From assembly GCA_021824565.1 (NCBI GenBank), contig JAKAKL010000022.1, positions 1-64,000 on the forward strand: a stretch of 64,000 nt of DNA, written 5' to 3'. The notes below the pieces were generated by a model, which was given only the letters and a program-made list of their open reading frames with translations, ran no database searches and was not told where the DNA came from. The DNA is from Bacteroidota bacterium (GTDB lineage: Bacteria; Bacteroidota; Ignavibacteria; Ignavibacteriales; Ignavibacteriaceae). Below, piece by piece: positions 986 to 10,192 of this stretch (positions are counted from its first letter, which is position 1; the number at the start of each line of letters is the position of its first letter). The position numbers were made by a program, and so were the translations under genes.

Positions 986-1717
986 ATGAAGTATACATAT
1001 TTATCTGTTTCTGAGACCGGACTTAAGAGGTTTGATAACGAAGATGCGATCGGCGTTATGGAAATTAACGAAGGGCTGCTTGCGATTGTCTGCGACGGAT
1101 TAGGCGGGAATAAAGCGGGCGAAGTTGCTTCCAGGTTAGCGATAGAAACTGTGTTCAACCGGTTTTATGATCTTGAAAATATTGATTGGCTTGAAAAAAT
1201 CAAGCTGTCAATAATGGAAGCGAACAAATCAGTCTACGAACAGTCGGAGTCGAATAATGATTTAAGAGGAATGGCAACGACTGCCGAGGTTCTTTTCTTA
1301 AAGGATGACACTGCATATTGGGGACATGTAGGAGATTCCAGGATATATCAGTTGAAGAATAATAAATTAAAACAGTTGACCAAGGATCATTCTTTGGTTC
1401 AAAAGCTTATCGACGAAGGATATCTTACAATTAAAGAAGCAGAGAACCATCCTAATAAAAATATTATAATGCGCGCTCTCGGCGAGCAGAGTAATATTGA
1501 AATCGACTTGAGTAAACAAAAAATAAATTTAAAGGATAACATGAAGTTTTTTCTTTGTACCGACGGCGTTTCTGCTGTAATAAACGATGAAGAGCTTCAG
1601 GACATTCTAAGAAATACCGATATGGAACTTATCTCTAAAACTCTTACTCAATTAATTGAAGAACGAGGAGCTCCGGATAATTTTTCTTTTATAATAATTA
1701 CACTGAGCAATAGATGA
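986..1717 (+). CDS. PP2C-type Ser/Thr protein phosphatase (Stp1/PrpC-like)
   Basis: A 243-residue cytosolic metal-dependent protein phosphatase. PP2C motifs are in order: RFDNEDA near residue 15 (metal-binding Asp), DGLGG near residue 38, GHVGDSRIY near residue 112, LTKDHS near residue 129, FLCTDGVS near residue 190 and the final APDNFSFI. The length is typical of bacterial stand-alone phosphatases of this family. Its stop codon overlaps the start of the next gene by 4 bp (ATGA), and that gene encodes a Ser/Thr kinase. The pair is therefore very likely translationally coupled and the phosphatase is expected to reverse that kinase. A TATCTTTG box at 925-932 could be a Bacteroidota-type -7 element, though no clear -33 box is seen. 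Confidence 0.92.
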   Translation: MKYTYLSVSETGLKRFDNEDAIGVMEINEGLLAIVCDGLGGNKAGEVASRLAIETVFNRFYDLENIDWLEKIKLSIMEANKSVYEQSESNNDLRGMATTAEVLFLKDDTAYWGHVGDSRIYQLKNNKLKQLTKDHSLVQKLIDEGYLTIKEAENHPNKNIIMRALGEQSNIEIDLSKQKINLKDNMKFFLCTDGVSAVINDEELQDILRNTDMELISKTLTQLIEERGAPDNFSFIIITLSNR

Positions 1718-3621
1718 TCGGCAGCGTAATAGAACATTACAAAATTGTTTCTGTTTTAGGCGAAGGCGGAATGGGAGTTGTATATCAAGCCTTTGATTTA
1801 AAACTTGAAAGATACGTTGCATTAAAAATATTGAACAGGGAAGCGACAACCAATCCTCAATTCATAGCGAGGTTCAAAAGAGAGGCGAAAAATCAGGCAA
1901 AGCTTACTCAATCTAATATTGTTCCAGTTTACGGTTTTACGGAAGAACGGAACATGCTTGGTATAGTGATGGAATTTGTCGACGGCGAAACGCTTGAACA
2001 CATGATCCAGAGAAAAGGCAAGCTTGAGCTTAAAGAGTCGCTGCAGATTTTAAAACAAATATTAACGGGAGCCGGCTATGCGCACTCAAAAGGGTTTGTG
2101 CACCGCGATATAAAGCCGTCGAACATTATTATTAACCACGAGGGTGTTGTTAAAATAATGGACTTTGGAATTTCAAAATCAATAAATGACGCTAAAGGAA
2201 TTACAAAGACCGGTACGAAGATCGGAACGATTCTTTACATGAGTCCTGAGCAGATAAAAGCAATGGAGCCGACAAGTCAAAGCGATATATATTCAATCGG
2301 CATTACCTTTTATGAAATGCTTTCCGGGAAAACGCCGTTTGACTCGGGAACCGAATTTGATATTATGGAGGCGCATCTAAAAAAGAATCCTCCCAAAATT
2401 AATAACATCTACGGCGGACTTTCACAGGAAGTCGACGCAGTAATTAACAAAGCTTTAAGCAAGACTCTCGTAAAGAGATACCAGGACTGCGAAGAGTTTT
2501 TAGCCGACGTGGAAAGGCTCAGCCAAAAAATTACCACGGTAGAATCGAAGCAAAAAACAAAAGCGGAAAGAAAAGATAAAGCAGTCAAAAAAAATTTATC
2601 AAGAGTAAGGTTTTATTTTTATGCGTTTATATTCTTCTGCATAATAGGCGGCTTGTTTTATTTTGTCTTTAGCACCGTTTCAGAGTTTTGGCGCGGCACA
2701 GATAAAGCTAATCTTCTGAATAAAGAATTATCAGTATTTCAAGATGATCAGGCAGTAAGATCTACCTGGCGGCAGATTAAAACGCCGATAAGCAGCACAC
2801 TCAATTCAATCTATTTTATTAATGATTCAACCGGATTTGCATGCGGCAACCAGGGCGCGGTAATTTCAACACGAGACGGCGGAAATAGCTGGCAAACGCT
2901 CAGCGACTCATCGCAAATTAATCTGTATAATATTTTTTTTATGAACCAGTCCAGGGGATTTATAGTAGGATCAAACGGAACTATTTTAAATTCTACAGAC
3001 GCAGGAAATACCTGGCAGAAAATTATAAGTGTCACTGCGGAAGCGCTATTTAAGATTTATTTTCTTAATGATAATAAGACCGGGTTTATAGTCGGCGCCG
3101 ATGGGACAATCTTAAGAAGCAACGACGCCGGTGCAAGCTGGTATCAATTAAATTCTCCGACAAAAGAAGTCTTATACAGCATAGGATTTACGGATGATAA
3201 CAAAGGCTTTATAGTTGGATGGAACGGAGAAATGTTAGAGACCAGTGATCAAGGTAATACCTGGACTGAGGCGAGAAAAGTAAGCGATCAATATTTGAGA
3301 GACATAAAATTCTTCAACGGTTCTACCGGGATAATAGTAGGAGGCGGGGGATTAATTGCAAGATCGGATGACGGCGGAGATGACTGGAAAATTATTTCTT
3401 CCAATACCGTATCAGGTTTGTATAGTATTAACATGCTGGACCAATCGCATGGACTAATTTTGGGCAATAAAGGTGAAATTCTAACTACAAATGACGGAGG
3501 GAAGAATTGGAAGAACAACGCAAGCGGGAGCTATGCATCGCTTATGTCGATGACGGAAACTCCGGCAAAGAAAATATTTATAGTTGGCAACAACGGTGTA
3601 ATTCTAACAAATACAAATTAG
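1714..3621 (+). CDS. Receptor-type Ser/Thr protein kinase with C-terminal Ycf48-like beta-propeller
   Basis: A 635-residue protein in three parts. Residues 1-270 are a Hanks-type kinase with the glycine loop GEGGMGVVY (16-24), Lys38 in ALKIL, the catalytic loop HRDIKPSN starting at 130 and DFG at 150. A linker rich in Lys follows, then one membrane segment at about 299-318. Residues about 335-635 hold seven repeats of roughly 40 residues, each with a G-F-x-x-G-x-x-G-x-I core followed by DGG-x-x-W. These resemble Ycf48/BNR blades and suggest a closed seven-bladed propeller outside the membrane. PASTA domains, common in cell-wall-sensing kinases, are absent. The gene overlaps the phosphatase upstream and is followed by murA after 51 bp, so a role in sensing envelope state is plausible but inferred. 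The propeller ligand is unknown. Confidence 0.9.
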   Translation: MIGSVIEHYKIVSVLGEGGMGVVYQAFDLKLERYVALKILNREATTNPQFIARFKREAKNQAKLTQSNIVPVYGFTEERNMLGIVMEFVDGETLEHMIQRKGKLELKESLQILKQILTGAGYAHSKGFVHRDIKPSNIIINHEGVVKIMDFGISKSINDAKGITKTGTKIGTILYMSPEQIKAMEPTSQSDIYSIGITFYEMLSGKTPFDSGTEFDIMEAHLKKNPPKINNIYGGLSQEVDAVINKALSKTLVKRYQDCEEFLADVERLSQKITTVESKQKTKAERKDKAVKKNLSRVRFYFYAFIFFCIIGGLFYFVFSTVSEFWRGTDKANLLNKELSVFQDDQAVRSTWRQIKTPISSTLNSIYFINDSTGFACGNQGAVISTRDGGNSWQTLSDSSQINLYNIFFMNQSRGFIVGSNGTILNSTDAGNTWQKIISVTAEALFKIYFLNDNKTGFIVGADGTILRSNDAGASWYQLNSPTKEVLYSIGFTDDNKGFIVGWNGEMLETSDQGNTWTEARKVSDQYLRDIKFFNGSTGIIVGGGGLIARSDDGGDDWKIISSNTVSGLYSINMLDQSHGLILGNKGEILTTNDGGKNWKNNASGSYASLMSMTETPAKKIFIVGNNGVILTNTN

Positions 3622-3672: not shown

Positions 3673-4935
3673 TTGGATAAATTTGTAATACAAGGCGGGA
3701 AGAGATTATCGGGGAGAGTAGAAATAAGCGGAGCTAAAAATGCTTCGCTCGCATTAATGCCGGCGTGTTTGTTAGCGTCCGGCAAGTCAACTCTATATAA
3801 CACACCAAAGCTTAACGATGTATATACAATGGTGAAGCTGCTAAAGCATCTCGGAGTTGAAAGCAATTTTGAAAACCACACACTTGAATTGGACACAAGA
3901 AAAATAATCAGCCAGGATGCGCCTTACGAGCATGTAAAGAAAATGCGTGCGTCAGTTTATGTGCTGGGTCCGCTGCTAACGAAATTCGGAACAGCGAAAG
4001 TATCTCTGCCCGGCGGATGCGCATGGGGACCGCGCCCGATAAATCTTCATCTTGAAGGTCTAAAAAAATTAGGTGCTGAAATTGACCTGGTCGAAGGATA
4101 TGTAGTAGCAAAAACCAGAAGATTAACAGGCGCAAGAATTAATTTTGATATTTCATCTGTCGGCGCAACCGGAAATATTTTAATGGCTGCAGTTCTTGCA
4201 AAAGGTACAACGGTAATTAATAACGCAGCTATGGAGCCTGAGATTACAAACCTTGCCGAGTTGCTTCAAAAGATGGGAGCGAAAATTTACGGTGCGGGAA
4301 CTTCGACTCTTGAAATAGAAGGCGTAGAAGAGCTCCAGCCCGCAAAGATTGAAACTATCCCGGACAGAATTGAAGCCGGCACTTTATTAATTGCGGCAGC
4401 GATGACCGGAGGCGAGATTACACTAATCAATTTTCCACCTAATTTAATTGGATCTGTCATTTCAAAATTAGAAGACAGCGGCTGCAAAATAAAAATTAAC
4501 GGCAGCACAATTTCTATCTCGAGCGCTGAAAGAATAATTCCGGTTGATGTTACTACCGCAATATATCCGGGCTTCCCGACGGATATGCAAGCACAGTGGA
4601 CGGCTTATATGTCTGTTGCAGATGGAACTTCAACGGTGACCGATACAATTTATCTAGATAGATTTAAACACGTGCCGGAATTGGAAAGACTTGGCGCTAA
4701 TATAAGCGTGAATGAAAACAGAGCTGTAATAAAAGGCGTAAAAAAACTAAGAGGCGCGAAAGTTATGTCTACAGATTTAAGAGCAAGCGCAAGTCTCGTT
4801 TTAGCCGGGCTTGCAGCAGAAGGCGCCACTGAAGTCCTCAGGGTTTATCATCTCGACAGGGGCTATCAAAAGATCGAAGAGAAATTAAGTATGTTAGGCG
4901 CAGATATTCGCCGGGAAGAAGGAAGCGAATATTAA
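3673..4935 (+). CDS. murA: UDP-N-acetylglucosamine 1-carboxyvinyltransferase
   Basis: A 420-residue cytosolic enzyme that transfers enolpyruvate from PEP to UDP-GlcNAc, the first committed step of peptidoglycan synthesis. The N-terminal AKNAS segment (21-25) and the active-site loop SLPGGCAWGPRP are present; Cys116 is the catalytic cysteine that fosfomycin alkylates, so the natural Cys-to-Asp resistance form is not seen. Late motifs FPTDMQAQW and LRASASLVLAG are also typical. The start is a TTG at 3673 preceded by GAGGAAG; no upstream ATG fits the family N-terminus better. It sits between the kinase and a membrane metalloprotease-like gene that begins 2 bp after its stop. Confidence 0.96.
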   Translation: MDKFVIQGGKRLSGRVEISGAKNASLALMPACLLASGKSTLYNTPKLNDVYTMVKLLKHLGVESNFENHTLELDTRKIISQDAPYEHVKKMRASVYVLGPLLTKFGTAKVSLPGGCAWGPRPINLHLEGLKKLGAEIDLVEGYVVAKTRRLTGARINFDISSVGATGNILMAAVLAKGTTVINNAAMEPEITNLAELLQKMGAKIYGAGTSTLEIEGVEELQPAKIETIPDRIEAGTLLIAAAMTGGEITLINFPPNLIGSVISKLEDSGCKIKINGSTISISSAERIIPVDVTTAIYPGFPTDMQAQWTAYMSVADGTSTVTDTIYLDRFKHVPELERLGANISVNENRAVIKGVKKLRGAKVMSTDLRASASLVLAGLAAEGATEVLRVYHLDRGYQKIEEKLSMLGADIRREEGSEY

Positions 4936-4937
4936 TT

Positions 4938-7157
4938 GTGTCATTTTTAAAAATAATCAAGAAGAATAATTTCCTGCCGGTATATCTTTTTATTATTATA
5001 TTTTTTGATGTATATCTTCAATTCATTCCTCTTACAAAAATATTCAGTTTTGAATATTCATTTGTTAATGCAATCGTACTTTGCTTACTAAGCGGAATAT
5101 TTTTTATCTCTTCATATAGAAAAAGCGAAGAAAATTATTCTTCGTTCAATTTTAAGAAAAAAATACTGCTTGCAAATTTATCTTTTCTCTTGCTGCCTTT
5201 AATAATCTCGGTTATAAATTCATTCTTTACGATAAGCTGTCCGTTGTCGGATGGATTATCATTTTATTTCGTAATTACGTTTCCGTCTTTGATCGTGGGC
5301 GTTTCTCTTGGAATTATCTCGGTGAAATTATTTAGACATTTTTCAATCCTGTCGTTTATTCTTTTATTTATTGCAATATTAATCATCCCTTTGTTTGAGT
5401 TCTACTTTAATCCGCAAATTTATTTTTACAACCCGATATTCGGTTTTTACCCCGGCACAATTTACGATGAAAACTTAAGCGTTAATCTAAATCTCGTTAT
5501 CTACCGGCTCTTTAATATATTGTACTTTGGAGCGATATTTTTGCTGCTATATAAAAAAAATATTTTCCCAAATAGATTTATAAAAAAGATTTTCTTTGTT
5601 GTTATTTTATTAGTTGCAATCTCTTTTAATTATTTTTCTTCAGCGTGGGGATATTCAACTTCTTTTTCAAAACTAAATAAAGAATTAAGCAATAAAATTG
5701 AGACTCAACATTTTGTAATTCATTTCCCGGCGCAAATAAATCCATCTTTTATGAGAGCAGTTTGCTTAGCCCACGAATATTATTATTCAAGACTTAGTAA
5801 ATTTTTCGGCTTCACCATGAGCGCAAAAATTAATTCATATATCTTCGGAAATAATGAACAAAAGAAAGATCTTATTGGGACAGCAAATGCCGACATTGCA
5901 AAACCATGGCTGAACTGCTCATTTATAACTCTTAATGATTATGGCGAAACTCTAAAGCACGAACTTGCGCATTGTTTTTCGTCGAAGATGGGAACAGGAA
6001 TATTCAAAGCGGCAAGCGGACTGAACCCAGCGCTGATTGAGGGGATTGCAGTGAGCGCAGATCCATTTTATGACGAGCATTCAATTGATTTTATGGCGGC
6101 TCTTGCATACGATCAAGGATACAGAATAAATATTAAAACACTTTTTAGCGGGTACAGCTTTTATTCAAATGCATCGTCAGTGTCTTACATTTATGCTGGT
6201 TCATTTGCAAAGTTCCTTATAGATAAATACGGCATTAAGAAATTTCAGAAATATTATTCGTCCGGTTCCTTTGAATCATCATACGGAGTTTCATTCGATT
6301 CAACAGAAAAAGAATTTTACAAATCTATAGATACGCTGCATTATGCATTTAATATAAATGAAGCCGACTATTATTACGGCTACAAATCTATTTTCTACAA
6401 AATATGTCCGCGTTATGCTGCTTCACAGTCGGCAAAAGCATGGCGGTTTTTTGCTAAGTCTAATTATCATTTAGCGGATAAAATTTTTATTAAGATAATC
6501 AAACTCACAGGTAATTATTCAAGTTTGATAGGACACTCAGAATGCCTGGTGAAGCAAAACAAAATTAGTGACGCAGTAAATATTCTGAAAAATAAGGTCA
6601 ATGATTTTCAAAGAACATCATATTACTTCAGCATTGAACTTAAACTTGCTGACGATTATTTTATTGCAGGCGATGCAGCTAAAGCGGATTCAATATATAA
6701 GAGCATGACAAAACAATATCCAAGTGAAAGATTGTTCTGTCTTGCAAAGATGAGGCTTGAACTTAGTCCGGACAGAAATAATTTAATGAAATATTTGGAC
6801 GGAAGTGATCACGACAGATTCATGCTTTTAAAAAAGGTGAATGAAAATAAATATAATTATTATTCAATCCCGGTGCTGATCGAACTTGCAAAATATTTCA
6901 ATGCGGATTACAAGAATATGTTAAAAATATTTTCAAAGCCGGTTGAAGCCGACAATTTTACCGGAGTTTACGCTGCATATAAAATATCAAATTATATGTT
7001 TGAGAATTTAGATTTTCAGAATGCATTAAAGCTTGCGGATTTAGCGGTTGAAAATAACCGCAATAAAGATTATCATGATATTCTTCAAGAAAATTACGAC
7101 AAAATAAATTGGTGTAATTCAAACTCTTCTTATATTTTTGCAAACGTAAAAAGATAA
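4938..7157 (+). CDS. Polytopic membrane protein with HExxH peptidase-like domain and TPR-like C-terminus
   Basis: A 739-residue protein that starts with GTG only 2 bp after murA, so it is co-transcribed. Residues 1-235 contain about six or seven hydrophobic segments. Residues about 255-470 form a soluble domain with HELAH at 341-345 and a downstream ALIEG with Glu368. This arrangement matches gluzincin zinc peptidases (clan MA), where the two His and the distal Glu bind zinc and the HExxH Glu is catalytic. The remaining residues are helical with TPR-like character (for example AGDAAKADSIYKSM). I do not recognise a named family with this full architecture. Substrate and topology are unknown; the location beside murA suggests, but does not show, a cell-envelope role. 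Confidence 0.7.
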   Translation: MSFLKIIKKNNFLPVYLFIIIFFDVYLQFIPLTKIFSFEYSFVNAIVLCLLSGIFFISSYRKSEENYSSFNFKKKILLANLSFLLLPLIISVINSFFTISCPLSDGLSFYFVITFPSLIVGVSLGIISVKLFRHFSILSFILLFIAILIIPLFEFYFNPQIYFYNPIFGFYPGTIYDENLSVNLNLVIYRLFNILYFGAIFLLLYKKNIFPNRFIKKIFFVVILLVAISFNYFSSAWGYSTSFSKLNKELSNKIETQHFVIHFPAQINPSFMRAVCLAHEYYYSRLSKFFGFTMSAKINSYIFGNNEQKKDLIGTANADIAKPWLNCSFITLNDYGETLKHELAHCFSSKMGTGIFKAASGLNPALIEGIAVSADPFYDEHSIDFMAALAYDQGYRINIKTLFSGYSFYSNASSVSYIYAGSFAKFLIDKYGIKKFQKYYSSGSFESSYGVSFDSTEKEFYKSIDTLHYAFNINEADYYYGYKSIFYKICPRYAASQSAKAWRFFAKSNYHLADKIFIKIIKLTGNYSSLIGHSECLVKQNKISDAVNILKNKVNDFQRTSYYFSIELKLADDYFIAGDAAKADSIYKSMTKQYPSERLFCLAKMRLELSPDRNNLMKYLDGSDHDRFMLLKKVNENKYNYYSIPVLIELAKYFNADYKNMLKIFSKPVEADNFTGVYAAYKISNYMFENLDFQNALKLADLAVENNRNKDYHDILQENYDKINWCNSNSSYIFANVKR

Positions 7158-7189: not shown

Positions 7190-8596
7190 ATGAATTTCTC
7201 TGAAAAACTCTTTCGGTATTCCTTTCTTATTGAAGCTTCAAACACGGCGGAAGAAAAAAAAGTAGAGGCATATATTGTCGGAGGATTTGTACGCGATTTG
7301 ATACTGCAGAGAGAAAAAAACGAAATAGATTTTTTGATAATTGGAGACGGCACCGAGTTTGCGTCAAGTTTTGCCAAAAAGCTAAGAGTAGATAAGATCT
7401 CCATTTTTAAAAATTACGGAACCTCACACTTCAAGTTTGAAAATTATGACCTGGAGTTTGTCGGCGCAAGAAAAGAATCGTATACAAAAGAAAGCCGGAA
7501 TCCGGTAGTTACTGCTGGCACTTTTGAAGATGATATTAAGCGCCGCGACTTCACAATAAATACTCTTGCAATCTCAATCAATAAAAAAAATTTCGGGGAA
7601 ATCGTAGATACATTTAATGGTTTTAAAGACATTGAAAATAAAATTATTAAAACTCCAATTGATCCGGAAATAACTTTTAATGATGATCCGCTGAGGATAT
7701 TACGCGCGTTTCGTTTTGCTTCGCAGTTAAATTTTACTGTGGATGAAGAAATAAATAATTCGGCGAATAAGCTGAGAGAAAGGCTGAAAATAATTTCACA
7801 GGAAAGAATTACAGATGAATTTTTTAAAATACTTTCCTCGCCGCAGCCATCGGTCGGATTGAAACTTTTATTTTATTCCGGTGTAATGGAAATAATTTTT
7901 CCTGAAATCGCAAACCTTTCCGGCGTTGATCAAAGAAAAGATTATCATCATAAAGATGTTTTTCTTCATACGTGTCAGGTGGTCGATAATATTTCCAGAG
8001 CGACAGATAATGTTTGGCTCAGATTTGCTGCGCTTGTTCACGACATCGCTAAGCCGCAAACAAAAAGATTTGTCGAAGGAACCGGCTGGACTTTTCACGG
8101 GCATGAAGAAATCGGCGCCCGCATGATGAAAGATATTTTTGTAAAGCTTAAACTGCCGTTTAATAAAATTGAATATATCGAAAAATTAGTCCGCCTTCAT
8201 CTTCGTCCCATTGCGCTGGCTAAAGAAGAAGTAACCGACAGCGCGATAAGAAGACTAATCGTCTCTGCCGGCGAAGATCTTGAAGATTTAATAACTCTAT
8301 GCCGCGCCGACATAACAAGTAAAAATCCCGGGAAGGTTTCAAAGTATCTTGATAATTATGAGCGGGTAATGAAAAAAGTTTGGGAAGTTGAAGAGAAGGA
8401 TAAATTGCGCGCCTTTCAATCTCCCGTCCGGGGTGAAATTATAATGGAAGTTTGCAATCTAAAACCGTCGAAAAAAGTCGGTGAAATTAAAACTGCAATC
8501 GAAGACGCAATACTCGACGGAATGATTGGCAACAATTATGATGAAGCTTACCGGTATTTGCTATCGATAAAAGACAAATTTCTCAACGATAATTAA
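7190..8596 (+). CDS. CCA-adding/poly(A) polymerase family tRNA nucleotidyltransferase with HD domain
   Basis: A 468-residue class II nucleotidyltransferase. The head carries GGFVRD (31-36) and NEIDFLIIGDG, the position of the metal-binding acidic pair, which here reads E45-x-D47 rather than the commoner D-x-D. FDDPLRILRAFRFA around residue 160-175 is the family neck motif. A C-terminal HD phosphohydrolase-type domain follows, with HHKDVFLHT near 251 and H284-D285 in ALVHDIAKP. Such proteins add or repair the 3' CCA of tRNA; a poly(A) polymerase role cannot be excluded. The start ATG follows the previous gene by 32 bp. Confidence 0.88.
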   Translation: MNFSEKLFRYSFLIEASNTAEEKKVEAYIVGGFVRDLILQREKNEIDFLIIGDGTEFASSFAKKLRVDKISIFKNYGTSHFKFENYDLEFVGARKESYTKESRNPVVTAGTFEDDIKRRDFTINTLAISINKKNFGEIVDTFNGFKDIENKIIKTPIDPEITFNDDPLRILRAFRFASQLNFTVDEEINNSANKLRERLKIISQERITDEFFKILSSPQPSVGLKLLFYSGVMEIIFPEIANLSGVDQRKDYHHKDVFLHTCQVVDNISRATDNVWLRFAALVHDIAKPQTKRFVEGTGWTFHGHEEIGARMMKDIFVKLKLPFNKIEYIEKLVRLHLRPIALAKEEVTDSAIRRLIVSAGEDLEDLITLCRADITSKNPGKVSKYLDNYERVMKKVWEVEEKDKLRAFQSPVRGEIIMEVCNLKPSKKVGEIKTAIEDAILDGMIGNNYDEAYRYLLSIKDKFLNDN

Positions 8597-8824: not shown

Positions 8825-10192
8825 ATGCGTTTCTTCCATAAATTCATCCTTTGCGTTTTGGTTTTCCCATTTCTTGCTTATGGGCAAAAAACTTTAACGC
8901 TTGATCAAGCTGTAAAAATAGCTCTTCAGCGCAATACTACCTTGCAGAAATCTTTGAACAGTCTTAAAGCTTCCGAATCAAATTACAAAGCAGCATGGGG
9001 AAATCTTCTGCCAAGCATTAATGCTGACGGCAGCTACGGTTGGAATCGTTCTGTTCAACCTGGCACGAGCGGCAGAACATATACTTTTCAGGGCATTACG
9101 ATCAACCTGCCTCCGACACCAAGTTCAACGACCGACACTTATAATTATTCCGCCGGCGCAAATGCTTCATGGACTTTATTTGACGGACTTTCAAACATTG
9201 CGCAAGTTTCAGAATCAAAAAAACAATTAGAGTCTGCAAGACTTCAACTTGAAAATTTAAAACAGAATATCGTCTTTCAAACAATTAGTCTTTATTATGC
9301 CGTTGTTAATAATCAACAGCTTTTAAAAGTTAAACAAGATAACGTAAAGTGGAATAAACAAAACCTCGAAACAATTGTTGAAAAAAATAAAATTGGCGCG
9401 GCAACTCTCGCCGATGTTTATGCGCAGCAAGTTCAGGAAGGAAATGCGGAACTTGATCAAATCCAGACGAGCAATAATTTGGAAACTGCGAAGAGCAATC
9501 TTTTATATTATCTGGGACTTGATGTTTTGCAGAATTATTCTTTCTCCGATTCATTAACATCAAACGAAGAAGACGTCTTGCATTCGGATCTTTCTTCAGA
9601 ATTTAAAAACATTGATGAGCTTGTCGCTCAAGCTTTATCAAAACGTGCGGATTATAAGAGCGCAATTCTTGATTACGAAGGTGCCGAGAACGGAGTAACG
9701 GCTGCTGAAGGCGGTTATTATCCGCGGCTGACAAATACATATGGATTTAATTTATTTTCGAACCAGCTTGATAATTTGACTAAATCAAGAACTTATTCTA
9801 TCGGACTGACATTAAGCATTCCGATTTTTTCTGGCTTCAGCGTAGATAATCAAGTTCAAGCTGCAGAAGTAAATGCTATGAATAAAAAAGTCGACATGGA
9901 TGACTTAAGACGAACCATAAAACAGAATCTACAGCAGACATATCTAAACGTACAGGCAGCAGAAAAAAGCCTGGAAGTAAGCAAGAGAAATGTAGCTTCT
10001 GCTGCAGAAAACCAGAAGATTACTCAAGAAAAATATACATTAGGCTCAGGTACACTGCTGGATGTCTTAGTTGCTAATTCCAATTATACAAACGCGCAAA
10101 CAAGTTTAATAAATGCCGAGTTCCAATATATAGTGCTCAATCAGCAGCTTAAATATTATCTCGGCGTTCTCAACTATAAGCAGTATGAATAA
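8825..10192 (+). CDS. TolC-family outer-membrane efflux channel
   Basis: A 455-residue protein with an N-terminal signal peptide ending near LAYGQ and two internally similar OEP repeats. Typical features are LTLDQAVKIALQRN after the signal peptide, long alpha-helical stretches that would form the periplasmic tunnel, and GGYYPRLTNTYGF in the second half before another strand and helix set. Homologues form trimeric outer-membrane channels for type I and tripartite exporters. It is the first gene of a run that continues with a membrane-fusion protein, an ATPase and permeases, and is the likely outer-membrane exit duct for that system. The start ATG is preceded by GGAGTTAAT. Confidence 0.92.
   Translation: MRFFHKFILCVLVFPFLAYGQKTLTLDQAVKIALQRNTTLQKSLNSLKASESNYKAAWGNLLPSINADGSYGWNRSVQPGTSGRTYTFQGITINLPPTPSSTTDTYNYSAGANASWTLFDGLSNIAQVSESKKQLESARLQLENLKQNIVFQTISLYYAVVNNQQLLKVKQDNVKWNKQNLETIVEKNKIGAATLADVYAQQVQEGNAELDQIQTSNNLETAKSNLLYYLGLDVLQNYSFSDSLTSNEEDVLHSDLSSEFKNIDELVAQALSKRADYKSAILDYEGAENGVTAAEGGYYPRLTNTYGFNLFSNQLDNLTKSRTYSIGLTLSIPIFSGFSVDNQVQAAEVNAMNKKVDMDDLRRTIKQNLQQTYLNVQAAEKSLEVSKRNVASAAENQKITQEKYTLGSGTLLDVLVANSNYTNAQTSLINAEFQYIVLNQQLKYYLGVLNYKQYE

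Follow-up and report, generated by a model that had tools for sequence, protein, structure and literature searches.

Receptor kinases that link the envelope to wall-precursor supply have been studied most in Gram-positive bacteria and mycobacteria, where sensing takes place via PASTA repeats. PASTA kinases are paired with PP2C phosphatases (PknB/PstP, PrkC/PrpC, Stk1/Stp1, IreK/IreP), and chains leading from a kinase to MurA comprise PrkA-ReoM-MurA in Listeria, IreK-IreB-MurA in Enterococcus and PknB-CwlM-MurA in mycobacteria, murA being the first gene of cell-wall building. Ycf48/HCF136, on the other side, are photosystem II assembly factors. PASTA signalling in Enterococcus acts on the MurA step through IreB (PMC12077105), and related kinase-MurA links are reported for Listeria and mycobacteria (PMC7286690 and PMC12723410 among others). 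A kinase with a different sensor is also on record, as Mycobacterium tuberculosis PknD is described as a kinase, a transmembrane segment and an extracellular six-blade NHL propeller (PMC1262709; PMC6213207); the first of these reports also places PknD in a phosphate-transport operon and mentions PQQ- and WD-repeat kinases. An earlier note on the DNA presented here knew of no characterised kinase of propeller architecture, a statement that has to be withdrawn, as PknD precedes it.

We analysed a stretch of 64,000 nucleotides (the window), which carries a PP2C phosphatase gene and a kinase gene sharing 4 bp (ATGA) between the stop codon of the former and the ATG of the latter, followed by murA and a membrane HExxH gene (Table 1). 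Both the overlapping pair and its adjacency to these two genes had been read correctly in the earlier note. The TolC-type gene of the operon fits a two-membrane cell. We consider, with a probability of roughly 0.6, that the locus encodes an order-specific envelope-sensing kinase-phosphatase pair, in which a periplasmic Ycf48-like propeller would act as the sensor and cell-wall precursor supply would be the likeliest output.

Table 1. Features of the kinase-phosphatase locus and its downstream genes (positions in the window).
Feature	Position	Strand	Evidence
PP2C phosphatase, Stp1/IreP family, 243 aa	986..1717	+	ORF, Pfam, NCBIfam
Receptor Ser/Thr kinase, 635 aa	1714..3621	+	ORF, Pfam, NCBIfam
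Kinase domain, residues 1-268	1714..2517	+	Pfam and orthologue alignment
Activation-loop T164 and T166	2203..2211	+	T164 in 45/47, T166 in 39/47 orthologues
Single transmembrane segment, residues 304-322, K/R-rich N-terminal side	2623..2679	+	Hydropathy and charge
Residues 352-635, with seven Ycf48/BNR-like repeats; predicted to form a seven-blade propeller in the periplasm	2767..3618	+	
Order-specific site: GWNG (W503) and Y527-L-R/K529	3217..3300	+	Orthologue conservation
murA, TTG start, 51 bp 3' of kinase	3673..4935	+	TIGR01072, 557 bits
Membrane HExxH protein, Peptidase_MA_2, HELAH at residue 341; most constant downstream neighbour	4938..7157	+	Pfam
CCA-adding/poly(A) polymerase-type gene, HD domain; follows HExxH gene in conserved gene order	7190..8596	+	Pfam
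TolC-type outer membrane efflux protein; last gene of the conserved order tested	8825..10192	+	Pfam

The phosphatase ORF matches Pfam PP2C_2 (E-value = 1.6e-16) and belongs to the Stp1/IreP family, scoring 236.4 bits with the NCBIfam model NF033484 against a cut-off of 230. All five metal-site motifs are present (DNEDA, CDGLGG, GDSR, CTDG and PDNF). The kinase ORF matches Pfam Pkinase over residues 9-257 (E-value = 2.6e-55) and falls among the Hanks-type, PknB-like kinases, as the catalytic residues K38, E57, D132 (HRD Asp), N137 and D150 (DFG Asp) are identical in 47/47 orthologues; since every one of them is kept, an inactive kinase is ruled out. PknB structures are the best structural matches of the kinase domain, and T164/T166 stand at the places of PknB T171/T173, its autophosphorylated TxT. 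The best NCBIfam model for the kinase domain is that of the PASTA kinases (NF033483; 335 bits over residues 7-292), but the score lies below the cut-off of 450 and Pfam found no PASTA or NHL domain in the 635-aa protein, which places it outside the Stk1 family and agrees with the initial description of a kinase devoid of PASTA domains. No PASTA kinase was found in the window's own genome, where PASTA domains occur only in a penicillin-binding protein and in a 259-aa protein (contig C136, L101:1063-1839); the latter has three of them and is otherwise free of Pfam domains.

The catalytic and the repeat part of the kinase are separated by a single hydrophobic segment, which begins at residue 304. 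Across the 47 orthologues, the 15 residues before the segment hold on average 4.8 K/R vs 1.7 in the 15 residues after it, and the net charge is higher before than after in 46/47. Together with hydropathy, this excess of positive charge on the N-terminal side supports a cytoplasmic kinase with its repeats outside the membrane, as had been proposed from the first reading. If the cell has two membranes, "external" would stand for the periplasm and not for the cell surface. The protein is thus almost certainly an active receptor kinase with a predicted periplasmic propeller.

The repeat region is a member of the PSII_BNR/Ycf48 family of Pfam (PF14870; 141.4 bits vs a cut-off of 27, E-value = 4.9e-41). 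Trp anchors at residues 352, 393, 434, 476, 517, 558 and 599 and Gly anchors at 378, 419, 461, 502, 543, 584 and 625 are each spaced by 41-42 residues, so that the region holds exactly seven Ycf48/BNR-like repeats, the number counted originally. In a sequence-profile search, the top-ranking solved structure is that of Ycf48 (2xbg, E-value = 1.2e-37). A propeller too divergent to be genuine is ruled out by the PSII_BNR E-value and this top solved match, and homology to Ycf48 gives good support to the propeller fold. An AlphaFold2 model built from the single sequence encoded in the window is of low confidence (pLDDT 64, pTM 0.56). With that model, Foldseek placed Ycf48 first (5oj5, E-value = 3.3e-15), with a TM of about 0.56 and an rmsd of about 8 A, and VIA-align returned many propellers (Z-scores reaching 16.8; rmsd 5.6 over 281 aligned residues). 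The top rows of the latter are WD40 propellers, several of which we take to be eight-bladed, and a model of such low confidence cannot fix the blade number. On the basis of Ycf48 homology together with this single-sequence model, the repeats very probably close into a seven-blade ring. The Ycf48 equivalog model NF010237 scores 142.1 bits, below its cut-off of 326. Three further PSII_BNR proteins are encoded in the same genome, each with a Por_Secre_tail and no kinase; given these secretion tails, secreted proteins are a possible source of the propeller domain. Other kinases of the same genome (L095, L097, L099) carry PD40 propeller-like, PEGA and TPR regions.

Beyond the Gly and Trp that define the repeats, three positions of the propeller stand out, namely Y527 (47/47 orthologues), R/K529 (47/47) and W503 within GWNG (42/47). 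In canonical propeller topology, W503 would occupy a B-C turn and Y527 a D-A loop on the same face of the neighbouring blades 4 and 5. The combined GWxG...Y-x-R/K pattern is present in 45/54 kinase-bearing frames, a count that takes in cut and repeated frames. It is missing from 13/13 non-kinase propeller frames of related genomes, a set that leaves out the cut orthologue L032, and from 29/29 propeller frames of other groups. The Y-L-R/K site has no counterpart in the Ycf48 alignment shown by the profile search. We regard a ligand site on the W503/Y527/R-K529 face as possible, if a little short of even odds; two aromatic residues together with a basic one would suit a sugar or peptide ligand.

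An orthologue of the propeller kinase was detected in 55/62 genomes of the window's order, which rules out a local oddity. Altogether, 59 genomes were searched, own included, and 52 loci were taken from relatives; 49 of these have the fused frame, which in three of the 49 is cut by a contig end. The window brings the number to 50 genomes, while the total of 55 also counts contig-end fragments in G044, G033, G021 and G199 and an orthologue-size frame in G177, accepted by score only. The kinase is missing from the remaining seven (G013, G024, G025, G029, G034, G035 and G192). In a tree with 126 other kinase domains, those of the orthologues group in a single clade (support 1.0), in which the four nominally "other" members proved to be the window kinase, included a second time, and orthologue fragments. 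Repeated formation of the fusion is ruled out by this single clade. In a phylum sample of 296 genomes, with 8 candidates scored per genome, an orthologue-size frame at E-value ≤ 1e-75 was found in 24/28 genomes of the window's order and in 0/268 of the others. None of 80 loci found by generic kinase motifs carries this propeller. Among 50 genomes of other groups, chosen via 50 of these 80 loci, 20 gave a propeller match; 30 loci taken from them, with flanks of about 1500 bp that would cut off a distant kinase, yielded 29 propeller frames, 0 with a kinase. Viral contigs gave 11 pattern matches to propeller relatives, none of which was confirmed. In the samples searched, the fusion was therefore not found outside the order.

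The downstream side of the kinase is visible in 47 of the 49 fused-frame loci. In 41/47, spread over three families, murA is the next recognised gene, with a gap of at most 200 bp except in L070 (631 bp), and the HExxH gene is present in 43/47. The four loci that miss it are L047, which ends inside murA at the contig end, and L055, L069 and L070, which keep kinase and murA. In the six loci without murA, the HExxH gene follows the kinase after 17-60 bp. A neighbourhood that varied among relatives had been named beforehand as a refutation, and these counts turned out in favour of the earlier note. Upstream, PP2C lies within 60 bp of the kinase in 26/27 loci of the window's family with that side in view (the miss being L076) and in 0/21 loci of the two other families, so the kinase-PP2C coupling is limited to one family of three. 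For 8/15 loci examined in these two families, all large upstream frames shown point away from the kinase, which, judging by ORF calls, may head its operon there. Concerning other orders of the class, murA adjoins the HExxH gene with no kinase in G107, G126 and G071 (loci L270, L271 and L272), while nine further murA loci of the class have no recognised HExxH gene alongside. As judged by this distribution and not by a dated tree, murA and the HExxH gene seem to have been paired first; the kinase would have been added in the ancestor of the order, and PP2C in a single family.

Losses on either side of the kinase-murA junction bear on the output of the system. The kinase alone is gone between PP2C and murA in G024, G025, G034 and G192 (L265, L266, L267 and L268; gaps of 38-139 bp), which retain the phosphatase without its partner, and both kinase and PP2C are gone beside murA in G013, which makes five genomes with murA but no kinase. 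Conversely, six kinase-bearing genomes (L053, L059, L064, L065, L066 and L076, from G017, G026, G046, G038, G022 and G015) have no MurA match at E-value ≤ 1e-80 in the operon or elsewhere in the genome, and their single PF00275 gene is in each case AroA. The same absence of murA is seen in G029, G035 and G021, the last being 81% complete and holding a kinase fragment. Additionally, murB was not found in G026, G015, G035, G038 and G046, is present in G022, G029 and G021, and has a match just below the cut-off in G017. An MraY-type family match exists in 14/14 genomes tested, in a family that also covers related transferases. Tannerella forsythia is reported to have no MurA/MurB and to rely on imported MurNAc (PMC5790795; PMC7670621), and by analogy the genomes lacking murA and murB may be MurNAc auxotrophs.

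Since the kinase is kept in six murA-less genomes, MurA cannot be its sole target. The proposal of the earlier note that the pair regulates envelope synthesis via murA thus stands in part, as the adjacency is conserved but each of the two genes also persists without the other. MurA was scanned in 43 sequences of the kinase-bearing group, 5 of genomes that lost the kinase and 12 of other orders, and no Ser/Thr tracking kinase presence was detected, the candidates mostly staying Ser/Thr where the kinase was lost. Based on gene order, control of MurA is a plausible output of the kinase, while the MurA step as its target is a tentative assignment to which we give somewhat better than one chance in three. 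The same losses would be expected of a general receptor kinase with targets unrelated to MurA, sharing an old housekeeping operon for stable expression. The murA-HExxH adjacency in other orders without any kinase points the same way, as does the parallel of PknD, a propeller kinase described as part of a phosphate-transport operon (PMC1262709). Against it stands the position of the kinase directly before murA in so many loci of three families, mostly at short distance, and we find such a general role rather unlikely.

A different partner could be the membrane HExxH protein, a putative metalloprotease that the propeller or the kinase would control with murA as a passenger; it is the more constant neighbour and comes directly after the kinase in all six murA-less loci. 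However, three loci keep kinase and murA without a recognisable HExxH gene, and the HExxH gene stays with murA in kinase-less genomes and orders, which makes this partnership improbable. A propeller serving as periplasmic scaffold or assembly chaperone, as Ycf48 does for photosystem II, with the kinase reading assembly status, is highly improbable: the closest solved relatives are indeed Ycf48 assembly factors, some with bound D1 peptide, but the secretion tails of the three other Ycf48-like proteins argue for recruitment from secreted propellers and the Y-L-R/K site is unmatched in the Ycf48 alignment of the profile search.

In the preferred reading of an envelope-sensing pair, the periplasmic propeller would use its W503/Y527/R-K529 face to bind a ligand or a protein of the envelope, and binding would cluster the kinase and lead to trans-autophosphorylation at T164/T166. 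Cytosolic targets would then be phosphorylated, the PP2C phosphatase acting as an off switch that reverses the reaction, and cell-wall precursor supply would be the likeliest output, via MurA or a protein acting on MurA. As a whole, it would work like the PASTA-kinase/Stp1 and PknD systems. The lack of PP2C at the kinase locus in two families of three speaks against this reading. A bolder version holds that the order independently built receptor-kinase control of the MurA step, the propeller reading a wall building block or fragment at the Trp/Tyr/basic site; retention of the receptor after loss of murA and murB is what one would expect if it reads cell-wall sugar supply. If so, the lineages without murA and murB would have to import MurNAc. 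We hold this version to be distinctly unlikely. An order-wide kinase with a different sensor before murA would demonstrate that this logic arose anew with another sensor, and it may represent a new means of adjusting wall synthesis to envelope state, kept by most of the order. The conserved propeller site offers a defined, testable candidate site for the signal, and the natural losses, of murA or of the kinase, allow comparative testing.

In the open-licence PMC literature, subscription papers lying outside that scope, neither a description of a kinase fused to a Ycf48-type propeller nor a paper on Ser/Thr kinases of Ignavibacteria was found. Compared with described systems, the kinase resembles PknD in its N-terminal Hanks-type kinase, one transmembrane segment and C-terminal outside propeller, assigned here by sequence, charge and hydropathy. 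Unlike PknD, with its six NHL blades and phosphate-transport operon, it carries seven Ycf48/BNR repeats and no NHL, and lies in a phosphatase-murA operon. With the PASTA kinase pairs it shares the best model for its kinase domain and an adjacent Stp1/IreP-family phosphatase, but the propeller replaces the PASTA repeats and the score stays under the family cut-off. The repeat type is that of Ycf48/HCF136, the closest solved structures by both profile and Foldseek, whereas fusion to a membrane kinase and a score below the Ycf48 equivalog cut-off set it apart. The secreted Ycf48-like proteins of the same genome have PSII_BNR in common with it and are without the kinase and the GWxG...Y-x-R/K signature. 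As in PrkA-ReoM-MurA, IreK-IreB-MurA and PknB-CwlM-MurA, a receptor kinase would be linked to the MurA step; unlike in those three, the link comes from gene order only, the sensor is different and the window's own genome has no IreB/ReoM homologue. The layout is therefore already known in kind, while the Ycf48-type sensor, its near-universal retention in the order and its place in a murA operon appear to be new.
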